A stretch of 64,000 nucleotides of DNA from Periplaneta americana. Taxonomy: Eukaryota; Arthropoda; Insecta; Blattodea; Blattidae. The number at the start of each line of letters is the position of its first letter. The first letter of the stretch is position 1. Made by a program: the position numbers and the translations under genes. The notes under the pieces were generated by a model. The model had not been told where the DNA came from. It was given only the letters and a program-made list of their open reading frames with translations, and did not search any database. The stretch is taken from NCBI RefSeq assembly GCF_040183065.1, contig NC_091120.1:75510208-75574207 (forward strand). Reading direction: 5' to 3'. Positions 4,870 through 49,696 of the stretch are shown here, one piece after another.

Positions 4870-7195
4870 GTTCTATCCATCATCGTCATCTTCACCATCA
4901 TCATTATTAACATAGTCACTGTTATTGTTATCGCCATCATTGTCCACTCAACCGTCATCGTCACCATGATCAATAACCATCATTCTCATCATCGCCGTGA
5001 CCACCATTGTCATCGCGATCGTCAGTACCATTGACATCGCCGTCAACACCACCATTGCCATCGACGTCGTCACTATCATTGTCATCGCCATCATCACCAC
5101 CACCACCACCACCATTGCCATCGCCGTTGCTACCACCATAGTCATCGTCGTCACCACCATTGACATCGCCGTCGTCACTATCATTGTTATCGCCATCGTC
5201 ACTATCATTGTCATCGCCATCGTCACTATCATTGTCATCGCCATCGTCACCACCATTGCCATCGCCGTCGCTACCACCATCGTCATCACGTTGTCACTCA
5301 TTGCCATCGCCGTCGTCACTATCATTGTCATCGCCGTCGTCACTATCGTTGCCATCGCCGTCGTCACTATCATTGTCATCGCCATCGTCACCACCATTGC
5401 CGTCGCCATCGCTAACACCATCGTCATCGCCGTCGTTACTATCATTGTCATCGCCATCATCAACACCATTGCCATCCCCATCGCCATCGCTACCACCATC
5501 GTCATCGCCGTCGTCACTATCATTGTCATCGCCGTCGTCACTATCATTGTCATCGCCATCGTCACCACCATTGCCATCGCCATCGCTACCACCATCGTCA
5601 TCGCCGTCGACACTATCATTGACATCGCCGTCGTCACTATCATTGACATCGCCGTCGTCACTATCATTGTCATCGCCGTCGTCACTATCATTGTCATCGC
5701 CATCGTCACTATCATTGCCATCGCCGTCGTCACTAACATTGTCATTGCCATCGTCACCACCATTGCATCGCTACCACCATCGTCATCGCCGTCGTCACTA
5801 TCATTGTCATCGCCATCGTCACCACATTGCCATCGCCGTCGCTATCACCATCGTCATCGCCGTTGTCACTGTCATTGCCATCGCCGTCGTCACTATCATT
5901 GCCATCGCCGTCGTCACCACATTGCCATCGCCATCGCTACCACCATCGTCATCGCCGTCGTCACTATCATTTCCATCGCCGTCGTACTATCATTGTCATA
6001 GCTGTCGTCATCACCATTGCCGTCGCCATCCATAACACCATTGTCATCGCCGTCGTCACTATCATTTTCATCGCCATCGTCACCACCATTGCCATTGCCA
6101 TTGCCGTCGTCACTATCATTTTCATCGCCATCGTCACCACCATTGCCATCCCCATCGCCATCGCTACCACCATCGTCATCGCCGTCGTCACTATCATTGC
6201 CATCGCCTTCGTCACTATCATTGTCATCGCCATCGTCACCACCATCGTCATCGCCGTCGTCACTATCATTGCCATCGCCGTCGTCACTATCATTGTCATC
6301 GCCATCGTCACCACCATTGCCATCGGCATCGCTACCACCATCGTCATCGCCGTCGTCACTATCATTGCCATCGCCCTCGTCACTATCATTGTTATCGCCA
6401 TCGTCACCACCATCGCCATCGCTAACACCATCGTCATCGCCGTCGTCACTATCATTGTCTTCGCCATCGTCACCACCATTGCCATCGCCGTCGCTACCAC
6501 TATCGTCATCGCCGTCGTCACTATCATTGCCATCGCCTTCGTCACTATCATTGTCATCGCCATCGTCACCACCATTGCCATCGCCTCGCTACCACCATCG
6601 TCATCGCCGTCGTCACTATCATTGCCATCACTGTCGTCACTATCATTGTCATCGCCATCGTCACCATCATTGCCATCGGCATCGCTACTACCATCGTCAT
6701 CGACGTCGTCACTATCATTACCATCGCCCTCGTCACTATCATTATTATCGCCATCGTCACCACCATCGCCATCGCTAACACCATCGTCATCGCCGTCTTC
6801 ACTATCATTGTCTTCGCCATCGTCACCACCATTGCCATCGCCGTCGCTACCACTATCGTCATCGCCGTCGTCACTATCATTGCCATCGCTATCGTCAGCA
6901 ACATTGTCATCGCCGTCTTCACTATCATTGCCATCGCTATCGCCACCATCATTGATATCGCTGTCGTCACCATCACTGCCATCACCGCCGTCGCCACTAT
7001 AATTGTCATAGCCATCGGGACATCATTGTCATCGCCTTCGTCACCATCATTGTCATTGCCGTCGCCATCATATATGCCATATCCATCGTCACCATCATTG
7101 TAATCGCTGTCGTCACCACCATTATCATCGCTGTCGTCACCATTATTCACATCGCCGTCACCATCATTGTCATCGCCATCGTCACCATCTTTATT
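4870..7195. repeat. 2.3-kb minisatellite, 24-bp monomer with 72-bp higher-order unit
   Basis: Tandem array built from 24-base monomers of ATC/GTC/GCC triplets (core ATCGCCGTCGTCACTATC). Three monomer variants alternate (ACTATCATTGTC, ACCACCATTGCC and GCTACCACCATCGTC types), giving a 72-base higher-order repeat over most of 5100-6900. Edges at 4870-5000 and 6960-7195 decay into looser CATCGTCAC repeats. The monomer is a multiple of three and stop-free, so hundreds of codons stay open in several frames on both strands, for example an isoleucine/valine/alanine octapeptide repeat on plus and methionine-rich repeats on minus. Several frames are open at once and nothing flanks them, so I do not call a protein. 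Confidence 0.92.
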
Positions 7196-9461: not shown

Positions 9462-9775
9462 GATGAAAGATGAGTGGAACGGAGAAGCATTTTCTCCGGC
9501 ACCGGGATTTCAACCCGGGTTTTCAGCTCTACGTGCTGATGCTCTAGCCACTAAGCCACATCGGATTCCCATCCCGATGTCGGATCGAATCCTCTCAGTT
9601 TAAATTCCACCTCTTGGGTTCCCTCCAGTGGCCTACTCTCATGCACTGCGTCATAGATGTATGACAGTGGCACAATGTCCACACATGTGCAGAAGTGCAT
9701 TCGTTATGAGTGACTAAGTGGCCGGGATCCGACGGAATAAGCGCCGTCTTAAATCACTAAGGTGCTATTCATAAA
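9462..9775 (-). repeat. tRNA-like repeat family T, full unit
   Basis: Reverse-orientation copy of the unit tandemly repeated at 10724-11465. It contains the GTGGAACGGAGAA junction, a tRNA-like segment with a B-box-like GGTTGAAATCC (read on minus), and a ~200-base unique body ending near GGCGCTTATTCCGTC (minus). The tRNA-like part is not a credible tRNA gene: it is embedded in a dispersed repeat and its anticodon loop lacks the usual U33. Confidence 0.75.
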
Positions 9776-10467: not shown

Positions 10468-10711
10468 ATGATATACCGAAGTACATATAATATTTTCGTG
10501 CAGATATTCTGCGTCATCATATGATGAAAGATGAGTGGAACGGAGAAAAATTCTCTCCGGCACCGGGATAGAGAATCAGCACATAGAGCTGAAAACCCGG
10601 GTTCAAATCCCGGTGCCGGAAAGAATTTTTCTCTGTTCCACTCATCTTTCATCATATGATGACGCAGAATATCTGCACGGAAATATCATATGTACTTCGG
10701 TACATCATAAT
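10468..10711. repeat. ~244-bp head-to-head palindrome of tRNA-like repeat T
   Basis: The left arm 10468-10569 is the near-perfect reverse complement of 10612-10711, around a ~42-base centre holding one tRNA-like anticodon arm and B-box-like segment. Each arm carries the GATGAAAGATGAGTGGAAC junction, so two family-T units meet head to head. It could extrude as a cruciform. Confidence 0.85.
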
Positions 10712-10723
10712 AATATATGATAT

Positions 10724-11465
10724 GCGAATAATCACTTAGTGATTTAAGACGGCGCTTATTCCGTCGGATCCCGGCCACTTAGTGCACCTCTGCACATGTG
10801 TGGACATTGTGCCACTGTCATACATCTATGACGGTGTGCATGAGGGTAGGCCACTAGAGGGAAGCCAAGAGGTGGAACTTAAACTGAGAGGATTCGATCT
10901 GACATCGGGATAGGAATCCGGTGTGGCTTAGTGGATAGAGCATCAGAACGTAGAGCTGAAAGCCCGGGTTCAATCCCGGTGCCGGAGAGAATTTTTCTCC
11001 GTTCCACTCATCTTTCATCATATGATGACGCAGAATATCTGCACGGAAATATCATATGTACTTCGGTACATCATAATAATATATGATAAGCGAATAATCA
11101 CTTAGTGATTTAAGACGGCGCTTATTCCGTCGGATCCAGGCCACTTAGTCACTCATAACGAGTGCACCTCTGCACATGTGTGGACATTGTGCCACTGTCA
11201 TACATCTATGACTATGTGCATGAGAGTAGGCCACTAGAGGGAAGCCAAGAGGTGGAACTTAAACTGAGAGGATTCGATCCGACATCGGGATAGGAATCCG
11301 GTGTGGCTTAGTGGATAGAGCATCAGCACGTAGAGCTGAAAACCCGGGTTCAAATCCCGGTGCCGGAGAGAATTTTTCTCCGTTCTACTCATCTTTCATC
11401 ATATGATGACGCAGAATATCTGCACGGAAATATCATATGTACTTCGGTATATCATAATAATATAT
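10724..11465 (+). repeat. tandem tRNA-like repeat T, two units of ~366 bp
   Basis: Unit starts at 10724 and 11090 (both GCGAATAATCACTTAGTG). Each has a ~190-base body, then a tRNA-like segment at 10919-10986 and 11299-11366 with A-box-like GGCTTAGTGGATAGAGC, a TCAGC/GCTGA stem around loop ACGTAGA, and B-box-like GGGTTCAAATCCC. The first unit lacks 14 bases (CACTCATAACGAGT) present in the second, a deletion bounded by AGT microhomology. The loop has C where functional tRNAs have U33, so these are repeats rather than tRNA genes. Confidence 0.82.
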
Positions 11466-11653
11466 TGAATTTTCTTTTACCAAATTCGTTTCGAATTTCG
11501 GTACTGAGAAATACTACAACTGGTAGTGATTTTATAACTATTATGTTGGCAGTAGTGACACAAGTTGTCGGTAGTTTAAAGTCTCAAAATTCAAATTGTT
11601 CTAGATTTCTGAGCCCATTACTGGAAGCTAGTGAAATTTGAACATACTAATAA

Positions 11654-14081
11654 CACTACTCAACAAGGTTTTCATAATATAGACAAGAATAACTATTTTT
11701 ATGTAATTTGTATGTCCTGATTACGAATATGACATTGAAAAAGCGCCTACACGTCACATTTTTTCAGAAACTTATATTTTTAGTTAGTAAATCGTATGAA
11801 AATGTGTTAAAATTAGCCATTTTGAAACAGATTTTTTCTTTAACGTAGATCTTTTACACAATTATATATCACTTCCGTTCTTTTAAGGTACCATTTGAAA
11901 CATACTTTCTCTTTTGTGGGTTAAATGAGTGTCACCCTTAGCGATGGTTTATTCTTTTATTACCCTTATTATGCAGCTGCACGGAGGGTTGGTCACAACT
12001 GGCTATAACTGACTAAGGGAAAGGAGGAATTACGGTCGCTGTTGTATCATTAGACAAGAAATGAACAATTTAGCGACTAAGTCTGATTGTAGAAGTGTTG
12101 TGAGCGGTACTATAGTTATTCTGCAATAGTGTTAAATGGATCGCAATCGTAGTTCATGTAAAAATTGTCCAAATATGTAGGCCTATATAGGGAATTAACT
12201 TTGAAATCACAACGTCGATCAATTACAGACAATGTAAAAGAGGCATATTACTTGTATTTTGGCTGTAAAGTAGATGAACAAGACAAAAATTGGGCACCAC
12301 ACGTGTGTTATGTAACATGTTACGTGAAGTTAACAGAGTGGTTGCGGTGAAAAAATAACATGTCTTTTGCTGTTCCAATGATTTTGCGACAGCCTACCAG
12401 TCATATGGAAGATTGTTACGTCTGCATTACTAAACCACAGGGATTTTCAAGGAAAGCTAAAGATAAAATTGTGTATCGTAATCTCCCACCAGCCATAAGA
12501 CCTATGCCACATTCTCCTGAACTTCCTGTCCCTATCCCTCCGCCCAGTGGAGAAGATTATGCCATTCCAGAGGAACACGAACTATCAGAATCCTCAGACT
12601 ACTCTTCAACTTCCTCTGATGCCATCCACATTCCCGAACATCATAGAAAACCACATCTGATGCGATAGGCAGACCTAGTTAGGGATTTAGATCTTTCCAA
12701 GCAACATGCTGAACTATTAGGTTTTAGATTACAAAAAATGGAACTTATTAACAAAAGATACCAAGATTTCCATGTTCAGAAAACAAAACGATAAACTGAC
12801 TAGTTATTTTGTAATTGAAAATACTGTATGTGCCTGCAAAAAATGTAAATGGGCTTATGGCTTGAGTATAATCCAGAAGAATGGAGACTGTTCATCGATT
12901 CATCAAAACTAAGCTTAAAAGCAGTTTTATTCCACAATGGCAATACAAAACCTTCCATCAATGGCTCATTCAGTCACTATGATAGAAACTTATTAATACA
13001 TGTCACTAATATTGAACGCAGTAAATTGCTGGGCGATTTGTGGGCATTTGAAAGTACTGTAATAGCTTTGTTGCTTGGATTACAAGGAGGATTAACTAAG
13101 TTATGTTGTTTTTTATGTTTGTGGGAAAGTCGAGCAACAACATAACATTATGTGGTGAAGAACTGGCCTATCAGACCAGGTCATATTCCTGGTGAGCATA
13201 ATATTAAATATCCTCCGCTAGTGCAATGCGAAAAAGTACTTCTTCCTCCACTGCATATAAAACTAGGGCTAATGAAAAATTCTGTGAAAGCTCTAGATAA
13301 GAGTGGAGAAGCCTTTCAATGCTTAAAGACTCTGTTCCCTAAAATCAGTGATGCTAAATTAAAAGAAGGCATATTTGTCGTTCCACAAATTAGACAACTT
13401 TTGAAGGACAGCATTTTTGAGAAAAGACATAACCCCAAGAAATTACCAGCTTGGAAATCTTTTGCACCAAAGGGTTTTTAGAGAATCACAAGGCAGAAAA
13501 TTATCGCCAATTAATAGAGACGTTACTAAGAAACTACAAAAAATAGCCTGCAGTACGTCACTGAAGATCCACTTCTTACACTCACATTAGGACTTTTTTC
13601 CTGAGAACTTGGGGACTGTAAGTGATGAGCAGGGAGAGCAATTTCACCAAGACATTGCTACAATGGAGCAACGATATCAAGGAAGATGGGATCCAGCGAT
13701 GTTGGGCGATTGTTGCTAGTTTTTGAAAAGAGAAGATTCCAGTTCTCATAAGAGAAAAAATGAAGGTAAATTTATCTTCCTCTATTTTATTGCACGAAGA
13801 GTGATTTTTATAAGTCTTAATAGTTGTTCAGTTATTAATGTATCAGTTTTATCATATCTAAGTTGCCTTTGGAAATTTTCACACAAAAAATGAGAACGAA
13901 GTAATTTTTAATAGATCAAAAATTCTAATTTTTCAATGTATCAAGTAAGTATCTATAACACAAAAACGTGACGTGTTACGAACTTTTCACTGTCATTTTT
14001 GTGTTCAGCGCATGGAAATTAGTTAAGATCAGCCTATTTTATTAATGTTATGGAAAAAAACTTCAAATTTGTTGAGTAGTG
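11654..14081 (+). mobile_element. 2.4-kb DNA transposon with CACTA-type TIRs
   Basis: Terminal inverted repeat CACTACTCAACAA at 11654-11666 and its complement at 14069-14081, flanked on both sides by TAA (11651-11653, 14082-14084). A 15-base subterminal inverted repeat (ACACGTCACATTTTT at 11749-11763, complement at 13962-13976, one mismatch) supports the boundaries. Ends beginning CACTA plus a 3-base TSD are the hallmark of CMC/EnSpm (CACTA) transposons. A TAA TSD would also suit PIF/Harbinger, so the class rests on the termini. The interior is the degraded gene at 12136-13770. Confidence 0.75.
12136..13770 (+). pseudogene. degraded transposon-encoded zinc-rich protein of unclassified family
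   Basis: Reading from ATG 12136 through several frames gives, in order: cysteine pairs CKNCP, YFGCKV and CYVTC; a segment around FAVPMILRQPT followed by DCYVC; a proline-rich acidic linker; EEWRLFIDSSKLSLKAVLFH; a CCFLCLWESR cysteine motif; PPLHIKLGLMKN; SDAKLKEGIFVVPQIRQLL; and finally FHQDIATMEQRYQGRWDPAM. I recall this motif series from large uncharacterised multi-copy protein families in arthropod and cnidarian genomes, but not a formal name. Sitting centrally between CACTA-type TIRs, it is most likely the transposase or an accessory protein of the element. At least three frameshifts and several stops (near 12350, 12666 and 13143) make this copy dead. Catalytic residues cannot be assigned from sequence alone. 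Confidence 0.6.
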
Positions 14082-14369
14082 TAATTAATTAATATTAGTA
14101 TTAATATTAATACATAATAGTTATTGTATGTGTTGCTTTGTGTTGTGGTTACAATTTCAAGATTAGAGTCAGGTAGGCTAAGTGTAAATAAATATAATAT
14201 ATTTCGTGTGATACATGCCCTTGGGTAATCGATAGAAATACCATTTCACATTTTAATTAATTTCTTTCGTGTTTAGACTTTCATTACAATAATGGAATAG
14301 ATATTCTAAAGCATACATTTCAAAGTGGCATTCGTTTTCGGAATTCATACTAATCATTTCACGTGACCC

Positions 14370-20317: not shown

Positions 20318-21297
20318 CGGTCGAGGTGGGTTCCTCCAAGTGGTGACCGGGGGGTGCAATGGTGGCTCTCGTGCTCTACTTTTCGGCCATTTTTCGTCCT
20401 ATCACCAACCACTCCTCTTCGTTCTCTCTTCTTTTTCATCACTATTTCTCTCCGCCGGCCGCCATTGCATGCGGAACGCCCACCACATCATCACAGCCAT
20501 TTTCACCACTCCATCCCCGCTGTTTTTGTTCTTGCCACGTCCGCCACCATGACGGGATTTGTTAACAATGCCTGACGAGGCTTTATTCTTCTTCCCCTTC
20601 TAATTCTTATATCTATTATTAGGTTAAGTTTCTTAGGTTTATAACTCCCGTCTCACCAGCGGGGATCTTTCCTATCTCCGTGGTCCTGTCTCACGGTTTC
20701 GAGAACGACTTCCAACTTGTGTGGCCCGACAGGGCGCCCAGCAACGAAGCAATAGTGGACCCTTCATACTGCCCCTATATGCAAGTCTAGGTGCGGAGCC
20801 CGGACCAGTAGTCATGTACACTCACGTAGAGCCCCAATGGGGGCCCGGAGCGACTTAAAAGTCCCGGTGACCGATTCTGCTCGCCGGGGCGGATATATCG
20901 CTCCGACGTGTTACCGCTGACGTATGGGTGTCGCAGTGTAATCAACCACAAGTCCCCTGAAGCTGCGTGCGGTCTCGGATTGCTCCGGCTTTGGGAGGGT
21001 CGGTCGGAGTTAGCCGCAGTAGTCTGGCACTTGTATTCAGTGTAGAGTGGGGAGCCACGGGCGGTTATTCCCGTGGTAGGGGCATAAAGCTGCGACACGC
21101 CTCTGGTGTAAGACTTGCCATTAAGTGTGTAATGACCAGTTTGAAGGGTAACTTGCGTGAAGTGGGTTGCTTGGGATCGGGCTGTGGGGGGTCCCCACGG
21201 CCGGCACAGACCGCGAAGAATTCTTAGGTGTCTTTTTCTTTCGCCCCCCCCGGTGGCAGGCTGACGCCGACAGTTCCGTAGGGGGGGCCAGTTCAAA
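20318..21297 (+). promoter_or_regulatory. LINE 5' UTR (presumed internal promoter)
   Basis: Non-coding leader between the satellite and ORF1, notably GC-richer than the host DNA. In I-group LINEs transcription starts from an internal promoter at the extreme 5' end. I see no specific motif that proves this here. Confidence 0.4.
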
Positions 21298-22593
21298 ATG
21301 GCCTCTTCGCGCTCCTTTTCTCCTCCCTCAGAAAAAAATAATAAAAAACAGAAGACAGGAATTGATACGACTGGTGGTCATATTTTGACGAAAACTGCTA
21401 TGGACTTGGACCCTGAGAAAGTAACTGTCAAAGTGCCGCCTCCGAAGTTTATCAGTATCACCTTGGACGGAACAGAAAAGACAATGAAGAACATTAGTCC
21501 ATTTTACGTGAGACGCGCACTCGACGGGCTCGTTGGGAAGGTCAAAAATGCAACTCGCCTACGCAACGGTAGTCTCCTCGTCGAAACGGTATCATCAAAA
21601 CAGAGTGAGACCCTGTTGAAAGCGAAGTTGCTATGGTCTTACCCTATTAAAGTCGAACGGCACTCCTCGCTGAACACCACGCGGGGAGTAGTGCATACGG
21701 ATTCTTTGGACGGTATGTCTGATGAAGAGATGCAACTAGAACTGGCGGAGCAGTCTGTGTCCAAGGCTTACCGTTTATTACATAAGCGGGACGGACAGAC
21801 TGTTCGGCTGAGCACTGTCTTTTTGACCTTCGAGAAGTCTGTCCTACCAGAATACATCCTTGTCGGGTACGAGCGTGTCCCAGTTCGTGCGTATGTGCCG
21901 AACCCAATGCGGTGCTTTAGGTGCCAACGGTTCGGACATACGCAAAAACGTTGCACAAACAACATCGTATGTGCAAAGTGCGGCGGTTCTGACCATGGGG
22001 AATCCCCATGTGCCAGCGCCGAGCACTGTGTGAATTGTTCTGGGGACCACGCCTCCAATTCTAAAAATTGCCCGAAATATATGGTAGAGAAGGATATCCA
22101 AGAACTGAGAGTCCGAGAAAATATTACGTTTTTCGAGGCGCGTAAGCGTATTTTAGATCAACAGAAAAAGGCGACGGAAAAGTCCTATGCAGCAGTTTTG
22201 CAAAAAGCAACACAAGCAATAGATGTATTTACGCAAACGCCACCTCTTGTTAGTATACCTGGGAAGCGTATTGAAAGTGCAACCCAGACATATGTAGACG
22301 TTGCCACTCAGACTGCTGAGTCAGACGACTCGTCTGGCCTTGATATAAGGCCTTACATTCCAAAAAAGATTATTACCGTGGGGACAGAGAAAGACTCTAC
22401 GCCTGGCAGATCGCCGCGACGTCGCGCTCCCTGTTCTGGTGACGGGTCGAGATCACGGTCTCGATCAAGATCGCGATCGGGCGTGCGGCGATCTGCGAGC
22501 GAATCCCCACGGTCGAAGGCTAAGCAGTCTCAGTCAACGGCACGAAATCCTAGAAAAGATAAGAAGAGAAAATCACCCGTCAAGCCACCATGA
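21298..22593 (+). CDS. LINE ORF1 protein (gag-like, three zinc knuckles)
   Basis: An intact 431-codon frame. Residues 206-219 (C-X2-C-X4-H-X4-C, RCFRCQRFGHTQKRC), 225-238 (C-X2-C-X4-H-X4-C) and 244-258 (C-X2-C-X3-H-X6-C) are retroviral-type zinc knuckles, in the spacing usual for ORF1 of I and Jockey-group elements. Upstream, about residues 40-190 form the conserved N-terminal part without a catalytic motif. The C-terminus is basic, with an SR-repeat tract near residues 384-395 and a lysine/arginine-rich end. Such proteins bind the element RNA and package it with ORF2. The ATG at 21298 opens the frame directly after the GC-rich leader, and the stop is 17 bases before the ORF2 frame, in another phase. 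It is uninterrupted while ORF2 carries at least six lesions. Confidence 0.85.
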   Translation: MASSRSFSPPSEKNNKKQKTGIDTTGGHILTKTAMDLDPEKVTVKVPPPKFISITLDGTEKTMKNISPFYVRRALDGLVGKVKNATRLRNGSLLVETVSSKQSETLLKAKLLWSYPIKVERHSSLNTTRGVVHTDSLDGMSDEEMQLELAEQSVSKAYRLLHKRDGQTVRLSTVFLTFEKSVLPEYILVGYERVPVRAYVPNPMRCFRCQRFGHTQKRCTNNIVCAKCGGSDHGESPCASAEHCVNCSGDHASNSKNCPKYMVEKDIQELRVRENITFFEARKRILDQQKKATEKSYAAVLQKATQAIDVFTQTPPLVSIPGKRIESATQTYVDVATQTAESDDSSGLDIRPYIPKKIITVGTEKDSTPGRSPRRRAPCSGDGSRSRSRSRSRSGVRRSASESPRSKAKQSQSTARNPRKDKKRKSPVKPP

Positions 22594-22610
22594 TAATTTA
22601 GATCCACATA

Positions 22611-25600
22611 ATGACTGATATCGTACAATGGAATGTGAACGGTGTACGCAGCAGATATGCAGAACTACAGCAATTGATCTATCGTGAGAACCCTGCTATT
22701 TTATGTCTACAGGAGACACACCTCCGACCTGAACATTCCCTGAAAATATCGGGATACAATGTTTACCGGTACGACCATCTTGCCGATATTCGTGCTAACG
22801 GAGGTTGTGCCCTCCTTCTCCGCCAGAGTATCTTTTCCTCTGTTCTAAACATTAACAGCCCTCATCAATGCATAGCTGCCAGAGTAACCTTACCTACCAT
22901 ATAGTTTTCAATAGTCTCCGTTTATATGCCCCCAGATACACCCTTTACAGTACTTGAAATTCAACATATTCTTTCACAGGTACCTGCACCATATCTCTTG
23001 GTGGGGGATTTCAATGCGTCCCACCACTCATGGGGCTCAAATTCCGATGACGACAGAGGAAATAAAATAGCAGAGGTATGTACCCGTCTAAATCTTGTTA
23101 CCCTGAATTCAGGGGAAGCAACACACCTCTCCTTGGCTTATGGTACATACTCCATGATAGATATCTCCATTTGTAGCCCAGTTTTGTCCACGCATTTCGA
23201 ATGGTCTGTGATTCACGACCTACATGGTAGTGACCACTACCCCATCCGAATGCGTATGTCCGCTTTACGTCCTGCGGAATCTCGATCTCCAAACTGGGTT
23301 ATTAAAAAGGCGGACTGGGTCGGATTTTCGGAGTCCATATCATTCGATGATAACGGACATGAAAGTGTGGATTCCGTAGTAGACTATTTCTCAAATATGG
23401 TTATCAAGTCAGCGGAATTATCTATCCCCCGGTCGTCCTGCAGGCCAAAACGCTTCTCTGTCCCTTGGTGGTCGGATGCCTGCAGAGATGCAATTCGAGA
23501 CCGCCGATGTGCCTTACGCCAATTTGAGCGCCATCCGACCCAAGAAAATTTTGTCCAGTTTAAACGTCTTCGAGCAAAAGCTCGTCGCACTGTATGCGAT
23601 GCTAAGAAGACGTCCTGGACAAACTAGGTCAATTCAATGAAAAGGAATGTCCCATCTAACATCGTATGGGACAAAGTCCGTCGAATAATGGGGAAACGTA
23701 GTTCTGTAATTCCAGGAATAATAAGCAATGGATTAACGACCACCAGTCCAATAGAAATTGCATAAATATTCGCTACCTCGTTCGCACAGATTAGCAGCTC
23801 AAATAATTATGACCCGGAATTTCTGAAAATCAAAGATGCTGCGGAAAAACGAAACCTCAATTTTATATCAGATAATACAGAGTATTACAATACACCATTC
23901 ACATCCGAGGAGCTGGAGGCGGCACTGGACGCATCCCCTGACACCTATCCTGGCCCTGATAACATCCATAACCGTATGCTTCGCCATCTTCCGCCAGCTG
24001 GAAAATCCTTTCTTCTGGCAATGTACAACAAGATCTGGACTGAGAGTGTATTTCAATCTGCTTGGCGTTCCGCCATTGTAATCCCAGTTCAGAAACCAGG
24101 AAAGGATCCTTCTTTACCTGGCAGTTATGGGCCAATTTGTCTTACCAGCTGCGTATGCAAGGTTATGGAAAAGATGATAAGCAAACGCCTGATGTGGGTA
24201 CTCGAATCGGAAAACCGATTGTCTAATATCCAATGTGGTTTTCGTAAGCACAGATCAGCCGCAGACCATCTTGTTCGGCTAGAGACCGCCATTAGAGATG
24301 CTTTCCTCAAGAAGGAACATCTTGTGGCGGTCTTCTTTGATCTAGAAAAGGCTTACGATACCACATGGCGGTATGGCATTCTACAAACTCTGCATGATTG
24401 GGGACTTCGTGGCAGTCTACCAACATTTATTGCGAAGTTCATGGCAGATGGTATTTCCGAGTTCGAGTAGGCACCACACTTTCTAACGAACATCTCCAAG
24501 AAAATGGCGTTCCGCAGTGTTCTGTATTAAGTGTTCTTCTTTTCTGCATTGCGATCAATGGAATTGCCCACTATGTTGGTGGCCGAGTATCTTCCCTCTT
24601 GTACGTTGATGACTTCAGTTTATATTACAGTTCCCGATATCTTCCGTCCATCGGTCGACATTTGCAGCTGGTCATCAACGTACTATCAGAGTGGGTTGTT
24701 CGCAATGGTTTTTAATTCTCTACTCAGAAGACGCAGTGTGTCCACTTTTACAACCAACGTGGACTACATCCACATCCTGAACTGCGTCTTAATGGAGTGG
24801 AGTTGCAATATACAGACACTGCGAAATTTTTGGGCCTTATCTTTGATTAAAAATTAACGTGGGAGGCGCATATACGTGATTTGAGAAGGCGTTGCCAGAA
24901 ATCCTTAAACATTTTACGCCTTTTATCAGGGGTTCGCTGGGGTGCAGATCGTACAGTGCTTTTACGTCTTTACCGAGCTCTAATACGATCAAAGCTGGAT
25001 TATGGCTGTTTTATTTATGGCTCTGCAAATAAATCTAAATTACGTCTTTTAGATACTATCCATCACCATGGGATACGACTCGCTCCAGGGGCCTTCCGAA
25101 CTAGTCGGATAGCGAGTCTTTATTGTGAAGCAGGAGAACCATCACTGTATCAGCGACGTAATGTGTTGTTGTGCTCATATGCTGTTAAGCTCCGGTCGCA
25201 GCCTGAGCACAATTCTTACGACTCTTTCCATCATTCGTCTCTTTACGGCCGATACAGTGAAAATCCACGGAGACTTCGTCCAGCAGGTGTGCGCTTTCTT
25301 GAACTGCTCTCTGAGCTGTATATACATCTACCGTCAGTTCGCACAGTGGAGTATACCACCACTCCACCGTGGATTATGCGACGTCCCATGTTTGATGTAA
25401 GTCTGAGCCGCTGTTTTAAGAATTTTACACCAGCTTTTGTTTATAGACTACGTTTTAGTGAACTTTTATCCCGATATCCAAATTATTCATTAGTTTTTAC
25501 TGACGGATCCCGGATAAATGATTGTGTTGGTTGTTCCTTCGTTACAAATGGAGAGATATTTAAATACAGACTAAGCCAATATACTAGTGTTTTTACTGCT

Positions 25601-26296
25601 GAACTCTATGCTTTTTACAGAGTTTTATTATTTTTAATTAGGCAACCTCGGGGCAGATTCCTTATCTGTTCCGACTCTTTAAGTGCCATCCAGTCCTTGC
25701 AGTCCTTTAATTGTGATGATCCGCTTGTCTTAAGAACTCAGCAGCTGTTCCATACTCTCCTTTGCTCTGATTATGAGATTGGAGTAGTGTGGATTCCTGG
25801 CCATGTAGGGATTCCAGGAAATGAGGCCGCGGATGCTGCAGCCAGGACTGGCGCACTGAATGGCTCTCTGGTATATTGGCGCGAGAGGTGGCAGGACATT
25901 CGAAACTACTTGAAATATAAAATATGGTGGCAATGGGAAGGAGAATGGTCTGCACAAGAGGGAAACAAATTACGAAATACAAAGAATACTGTTCGAGTTT
26001 GGGATTCGTCTACAAGAGCGTCGCGACACGAGGAGGTTTTACTCACCCGGTTGAGGATTGGCCATTGTCATCTGACACACGGCCATCTCCTACGTGGCGA
26101 ACCTCAGCCGGAGTGCGATATGTGCCATGTTCCACTTACGGTGGAACACTTTTTATTGCGTTGCAGGAAATATGACCATGCACGGAGGCAATATGGAATT
26201 CGGCCGACATTGCGTGACGCTCTTGGAAATGATTTTAATTGTACAAATGCAGTTCTGAGATTTTTATCAAATACAGGTTTGGATAAGGTGATTTAG
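22611..26296 (+). pseudogene. LINE ORF2 (endonuclease, RT, RNase H), disabled
   Basis: Domains in order: an APE-like endonuclease (QWNVNGVRS near the start, CLQETHL, LVGDFNASHHSWGS, GSDHYPI); reverse transcriptase (KPGKDPSLPGSY, FFDLEKAYDTTWR, YVDD at about 24604-24615); RNase H (FTDGSRI, AELYAF, CSDSLSAI, WIPGHVGIPGNEAADAAAR); and a terminal CCHC-like motif (CDMCHVPLTVEHFLLRC). Lesions: in-frame stops at 22902-22904, 23625-23627, 23763-23765, 24713-24715 and 24848-24850, and a frameshift near 24460. The usually invariant RT turn PQGSVLSPLLF reads PQCSVLSVLLF, so catalysis is doubtful even apart from the stops. The last 471 codons, from 24881, are open. The protein would nick target DNA and prime cDNA synthesis in the nucleus; this copy cannot. 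Confidence 0.88.
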
Positions 26297-48396: not shown

Positions 48397-49696
48397 CGAG
48401 AGTTGTAAATAAAGTAGTGGCAACATAGGCAGTGTGAACATATTATTGAACTTACATGGAAAATACTTTTACATCCTTCAATATAATCACCAACGAGTTC
48501 CTGTATCTTTTTCCAAATCCTTGGTAACCGTTGAATGCCGCTAGCTAGGTTGTTTCTGTTGATCTCTCTGATGGACTGCCCTACTGCATGAAACACTGAT
48601 TCAATCTGGAAACCTCTTTCCTCTAAGTGGTTCTTTCAACCGTGGAAACAAGTCGTAGTCACAAGGACTCATGTCAGGGGAATACGGAGGATGTTCCAAT
48701 ACTTTCCAATCCCATCTCTGTAGTAATTGAGCCACTGCTTCTGCGACATGACAACGAGCATTATCATGCAAGCTGAAAGGTGGATTGTCTCTCAGGAAAT
48801 GTAGACGTTTGCGCCGCATAGTTGGTAGGTTGTGTTCGAGAGAATGTTGGTAGTACGCTGCATTGGCATTTTGATCTTGAGATACGGCATGGCTAATGAG
48901 AACACCTTCATTGTCGTATGCCACTATCAGCATGACTATCACCCTAGTGTGTTCATATCTTACTTTTTTTGGACGTGGTGATCTTTGTGGTGCCATTCAT
49001 TAGACTGACGCTATAGTTCAGACTCGTATGCCCGTGTCCACATCTCGTCAATGGCAACAGTACGTTGCAGGAATACGTCCCCTTCCTTGTGGTATCTTTG
49101 TAGGTGAAGTTGAGCTATTGCGTGTACTTTTGTCAGGTTATGAGGAACCCAGCGCGCTGCAATTTTTCTCATGTGAAGGTTTTTCTTCAGGATGTGCCAC
49201 ACAGTTTGATGACTGAGTCCAATCTCGATGAATAATTCTCGTATAATTCAGAGATGGTCAACAACAAGGAGACCTGGCACTAACTCCACTTTTTCTTCAC
49301 AAATGGACGAGCGTCTTGTGCGAGCCACATGTTCCATCTCATTCTGACCCGTACGAAATGCAGAGACCCATCTTGGAACCGTTCGATACAGTAGTGCATC
49401 ATTGACACAACCTTGAAATAACCGTTGATGATATTGGCGTGGATTTCTACCACGGGCTACCTCGATTTTTATCCACGATCGCTGCTCAAGTTTACTAAAC
49501 ATGCTTTAGAGCAGTTAAAAATAATGTACTACATTTAACCACGCACAATAACAATATATGTTGTCATAGCAAGCGTTTTCATCATTCAATACATAATTCA
49601 ATATCTCCAACAATGATCACCAATTGTCTCGTATCGCATGCGAATGCGCATGATCCTTTCCCGAAAGTGTTTCCACTACTTTATTTACAATCCATG
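48397..49696 (-). mobile_element. mariner element, 1300 bp, complete ends
   Basis: Terminal inverted repeats of ~30 bases (left TTGTAAATAAAGTAGTGGCA, right complement of TTGTAAATAAAGTAGTGGAA) with TA at 48395-48396 and 49697-49698. The length of 1300 bases is typical for mariner. The transposase frame lies on minus and is broken. Confidence 0.92.
48420..49502 (-). pseudogene. mariner transposase (DD34D), inactivated
   Basis: Starting at the ATG at 49500-49502 (MFSKLEQRSWIKIEVARG), the frame holds the helix-turn-helix half with YHQRLFQGCVNDALL and VPRWVSAFRTGQ, then WVPHNLT, the first catalytic Asp in AIDEMW (about 49050), GSPRPKK-type PQRSPRPKKVRYEH, the second Asp in HDNARCH, and the third in YSPDMSPCDYDLFP. 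Between the second and third Asp are 34 residues, the DD34D signature of mariner. The C-terminus runs through HAVGQSIREINRNN to VGDYIEG near 48470. A stop separates the first two parts (about 49205-49247), and frameshifts occur near 49000 and 48600. The enzyme would cut and paste the element at TA; this copy cannot make it. Confidence 0.88.

Follow-up and report, generated by a model that had tools for sequence, protein, structure and literature searches.

A degraded DNA transposon with the published marks of Chapaev3 in the genome of Periplaneta americana

Chapaev is among the DNA transposons reported from every arthropod species investigated in one study (PMC6327564), and two Chapaev3 elements are listed in a blowfly region (PMC3630058). 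The ends of Chapaev elements are described as CAC and GTG, and the Chapaev3 elements examined in the same study have a TWA duplication and insert between A and T (PMC4079192). That study reports the A-TWA-T target and an LH motif for both Chapaev3 and Chapaev. It also describes Garfield_BM, a Chapaev3 element of 2,289 bp with a 556-aa protein that carries C(2)C, LH and H(4)H motifs (PMC4079192). A zinc-finger type domain named Chapa is described at the N terminus in Chapaev and Chapaev3 (PMC4411706). C(2)C and H(3-4)H motifs located between the second D and the E are given as common to the whole CMCT clade (PMC12730594).

We analyzed a stretch of 64,000 nucleotides of P. americana contig NC_091120.1, called the window here. 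It contains a 2,428-bp element with a single broken gene inside (Table 1). This element is very probably the dead remnant of a Chapaev3 transposon, a DNA element that moves by cut and paste.

Table 1. Features of the element, in window coordinates. A2 is an alignment of 19 relatives described in the text.
Feature	Position	Strand	Remarks
Left target duplication TAA	11651..11653	.	Read directly; A at 11650 just before
Left terminal inverted repeat CACTACTCAACAA	11654..11666	+	Perfect 13 nt; recurs across genome copies
Left subterminal inverted repeat arm	11704..11763	+	Pairs with 13962-14021
Broken transposase gene	12136..13764, end approximate	+	Stops and several frameshifts; has relatives with open frames
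Cysteine-rich N-terminal part (CKNC, HVCYVTC, CYVC), presumed zinc-binding	12157..12425	+	Partly aligned in relatives
Presumed first catalytic D (FIDSSK)	12897..12899	+	D in 19/19 A2 rows
Presumed second catalytic D (GDLW; relatives mostly GDLK)	13035..13037	+	D in 17/17 A2 rows with a residue, 2 gaps
C(2)C motif CFLC	13107..13118	+	Window copy and A2
LH motif within PPLHIKLG	13251..13256	+	Window copy and A2
H(4)H motif HFLHSH	13570..13587	+	Window copy and A2
Presumed catalytic E, at 13627 or 13636 (SDEQGEQ)	13627..13638	+	Each E in 17/18 A2 rows with a residue
Right subterminal inverted repeat arm	13962..14021	-	Pairs with 11704-11763
Right terminal inverted repeat	14069..14081	-	Perfect 13-nt match to left end
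Right target duplication TAA	14082..14084	.	Read directly; T at 14085 just after

Ends and target sites

A preliminary description of this DNA had reported terminal inverted repeats of 13 bases, a subterminal pair and target duplications that read TAA; all three are present in the window copy. The subterminal arms are less alike than the 13-nt ends: over 61 nt they match at 75%, with E 2e-4 when the left-end 200 nt serve as query and E 0.003 when the entire element does. As a chance control, we simulated the window 60 times with a first-order Markov model and counted perfect 13-nt CAC..GTG pairs lying 300-6000 nt apart. The simulated windows held a mean of 0.083 such pairs each, and no pair carried a duplication of TAA or TTA. 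The actual window has 10 such pairs, and the element is the only one with this duplication.

We searched the species' own genome (3.23 Gb, 91 contigs) by DNA and obtained at least 44 matches, from the 40 scored out of 1026 first-look candidates. Among those scored, 27 matches, one of them the window copy, cover nearly the full element, and we read each of them. Nineteen of the 27 copies keep the left 13-mer exactly and 22 of 26 keep the right one, a further right end being masked; the remaining ends are one to a few bases off. The duplications are identical in 22 of the 26 readable copies (13 TAA and 9 TTA), and in the other four the left and right triplets differ at a single position. The boundaries given in the preliminary description thus recur in other copies. 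The base preceding the duplication is A in every one of the 27 copies, and the base following it is T in 23 of 26. Ends, duplication and target rule are all read directly from the copies. Divergence from the column majority has a mean of 4.3%, and the 6.2% of the window copy equals the highest among the values listed for the 27 copies. The full-length gene is open in none of the 27; the longest open stretch is 294 aa when the masked run in one copy (L009) is ignored.

Other repeats occur in the window. Units of about 380 bp with tRNA-Tyr-like sequences (10566-11465, also 9494-9565; 2.4 copies) adjoin the left side of the element and are probably SINE-like. A 24-bp minisatellite of about 87 units lies at 5107-7189. 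The LINE-type retrotransposon at 21265-26296 has matches to an endonuclease (PF14529), a reverse transcriptase (PF00078) and an RNase H (PF00075); its first ORF has apparent zinc knuckles by eye, and no Pfam model matched it. On the minus strand, 48604-48996 is a probable mariner-like transposase fragment, with weak matches to DDE_3 and Transposase_1 that are both below the curated cut-off.

The broken gene and its relatives

The preliminary description had also noted one degraded gene with cysteine motifs. The motifs that it quoted are indeed there, scattered over frames with stops (in frame at 12348, 12666, 13143, 13588 and 13717) and frameshifts. The N-terminus of this gene is cysteine-rich, and this part aligns partly in relatives. 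Further along, the motifs of the window copy follow the order D, D, C(2)C, LH, H(4)H, E. This order was reproduced in 12 of 20,000 residue shuffles of a read-through that includes about 22 residues read out of frame, with spacing ranges chosen after seeing the sequence.

A protein search of the same genome gave at least 102 matches, with 81 scored of 21,775 loose first-look candidates, numbers that do not represent a copy number. We examined 33 loci, namely the 30 best matches and three without stops; the window copy (L030) is one of them, and two others (L032 and L036) also belong to the 27 DNA copies. At 26 of the 33 loci, the ends on both sides match one of seven end sequences with no more than 2 mismatches, compared with 0 of 300 random segment pairs, where the pairs were drawn from the window and some of the seven end sequences were derived from the same 33 loci. 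The 2-mismatch rule was adopted because a 3-mismatch rule is too loose: it passes 31 of the 33 loci, but also 110 of the 300 random pairs. Such ends are accompanied by identical TAA or TTA duplications at 19 loci. Two ends within 2 mismatches are missing at 7 loci, and the combination with identical TAA or TTA is missing at 14. Two loci have other identical triplets on both sides, TGA in L060 and ATA in L044.

Homologous frames therefore sit in CACT-ended elements with 3-bp duplications, which agrees with the earlier proposal that the gene is transposon-encoded. The concern that homologous genes might lie outside CACTA-type terminal repeats is not borne out by these counts. There are at least three further end types, CACTAGTCAACAA (about 2.61-2.67 kb), CACTAGTCTACAG (about 2.9 kb) and CACTRGTCGACAA. 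Given that related groups start with CACTAG or CACTGG, the bases after CACT vary.

Three relatives (L060, L061 and L062) have single open frames, of 501, 567 and 568 aa counted from a TTG. The first of these frames lacks most of the cysteine-rich part. Two of the three relatives have changed motif residues. In L061, LP replaces LH and R replaces the first H of H(4)H, and in L062 a D replaces one E.

Alignment A2 consists of 19 of the 32 relative loci, picked for the cleanest frames. The presumed D-D-E residues are present and conserved in it (Table 1). The two C(2)C cysteines are found in 17/19 and 14/19 rows, the L and H of LH in 17/19 and 14/17, and the two H(4)H histidines in 17/18 and 15/18. 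A frameshift spans the second D and C(2)C in two rows (L058 and L059), and one row (L031) stops short of H(4)H. A single-sequence fold prediction of 210 in-frame residues reached a mean pLDDT of only 34.7, which is too low to use.

Sequence searches of Pfam, NCBIfam and PDB gave no credible match. The three open-frame relatives match no Pfam model, and no transposase model of Pfam matches; Pfam matches were inspected at E up to 10, a range in which HMMER drops most above about 0.1. The only two Pfam matches, DUF7656 (E 0.11) and a V-ATPase (E 0.16), are weak, unrelated and below the cut-off, and we took both as chance. A dynein regulatory subunit in PDB, matched by one open-frame relative (best E 0.043), was likewise taken as chance. 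A PDB search with the 19-row A2 profile found no credible structure (best E 2.1). Beyond the species' own genome, relatives were found neither by a protein scan of viral contigs, nor in scans of other genome contigs, nor in phage records at E 0.01, and a DNA motif scan gave two matches judged to be chance. The peptide PPLHIKLGLMKN was not found in the literature searched, and strings close to the terminal repeat matched only papers that, judging by title, are not on transposons.

Placement among related transposons

The element resembles Chapaev3 (Garfield, Merrow and Conan; Repbase Chapaev3) in its CAC..GTG ends and in its A-TWA-T target, with identical duplications that are all TAA or TTA and with insertion between A and T. 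It also has the C(2)C, LH and H(4)H motifs, both in the window copy and in 14-17 of 17-19 A2 rows per residue, and its size is similar to that of Garfield_BM. One difference is that the Garfield and Merrow genes have two exons, whereas the open frames of the relatives here are single. Since the published marks that can be tested on the DNA and in the motifs are present, we filed the element as Chapaev3, and the gene is therefore transposon-encoded, of the CMC group, and most likely of Chapaev3 rather than EnSpm. This assignment compares ends, target and motifs with published descriptions. The preliminary description had called the lineage CMC/EnSpm-like; its CMC part is upheld by the motifs, but its EnSpm-like part is not, as the A-TWA-T target and C(2)C, LH and H(4)H correspond to the published description of Chapaev3. 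It had further suggested an undescribed system. Because the lineage is most likely Chapaev3, a type that is already described, we do not retain that suggestion.

An EnSpm/CACTA element would likewise move by cut and paste but belong to another CMC branch. A 3-bp duplication flanking CAC..GTG ends is also taken to be consistent with EnSpm, and the entire clade is described as having C(2)C and H(3-4)H in common (PMC12730594). Indeed, the window element has ends that read CACTA as well as the 3-bp duplication and the CMC motifs. However, the A-TWA-T target and LH motif are those reported for Chapaev3 and Chapaev, and the bases after CACT are not kept among the related groups. Moreover, the EnSpm transposase domain, which we take to be Pfam PF02992, is absent at E up to 10 from the Pfam matches of the read-through and the three open-frame relatives. 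We therefore regard EnSpm as very unlikely. It is very unlikely that the family represents a separate, unnamed lineage of the CMC clade, distinct from Chapaev3 and EnSpm and resembling Chapaev3 in ends and target choice. Such a lineage would be one without a matching Pfam model, multi-copy in its own genome and still with open-frame members. The lack of a match to curated Pfam models fits it, as does the fact that Chapaev3 membership is based on published marks and not on sequence comparison, but the Chapaev3 marks that can be tested on the DNA and in the motifs are all present.

The preliminary description mentioned abundant unnamed proteins of this kind in arthropods and cnidarians, which would suit a host gene family captured by chance by a transposon. 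The probability of this is close to nil, given the matching ends at 26 of 33 loci (control 0/300), the identical TAA or TTA at 19 of them, and the well-conserved D-D-E and CMC motifs. Transib and RAG1 are placed in the same larger CMCT clade through shared C(2)C and H(3-4)H (PMC12730594), but Transib is described with 5-bp duplications (PMC4411706), in contrast to the 3-bp duplication here. No RAG1 structure is among the PDB sequence matches. A TWA duplication by itself would fit PIF/Harbinger. We rejected this group, as its nuclease domain is not among the Pfam matches of the read-through and the three open-frame relatives, and CMC motifs are present instead.

Proposed mechanism and significance

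Knowledge of the CMC group suggests how a live Chapaev3 element of this family may have moved, and what we propose for the binding, chemistry and fold of the transposase is drawn from that group. Encoded by the element's only gene, the transposase would bind to the terminal inverted repeats, perhaps via its cysteine-rich N-terminal part. Its D-D-E active site, which would work with metal ions and may be braced by the residues of C(2)C and H(4)H, would make the cuts at the CAC/GTG tips. Insertion would be into an A-TWA-T site with a 3-bp stagger, and would therefore leave a TAA or TTA duplication.

The element in the window is a real, worn-out transposon copy that fits a known type and is one of many related copies in this genome. 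The A-TWA-T target rule is seen across 27 copies, all from a single family in this one genome. The value of the finding is mostly for annotation, and it opens no long-standing question. The Pfam version searched has no model matching the proteins with PPLHIKLGLMKN and FHQDI motifs, and these should be labeled as Chapaev3-type transposases, not as host proteins of unknown function.
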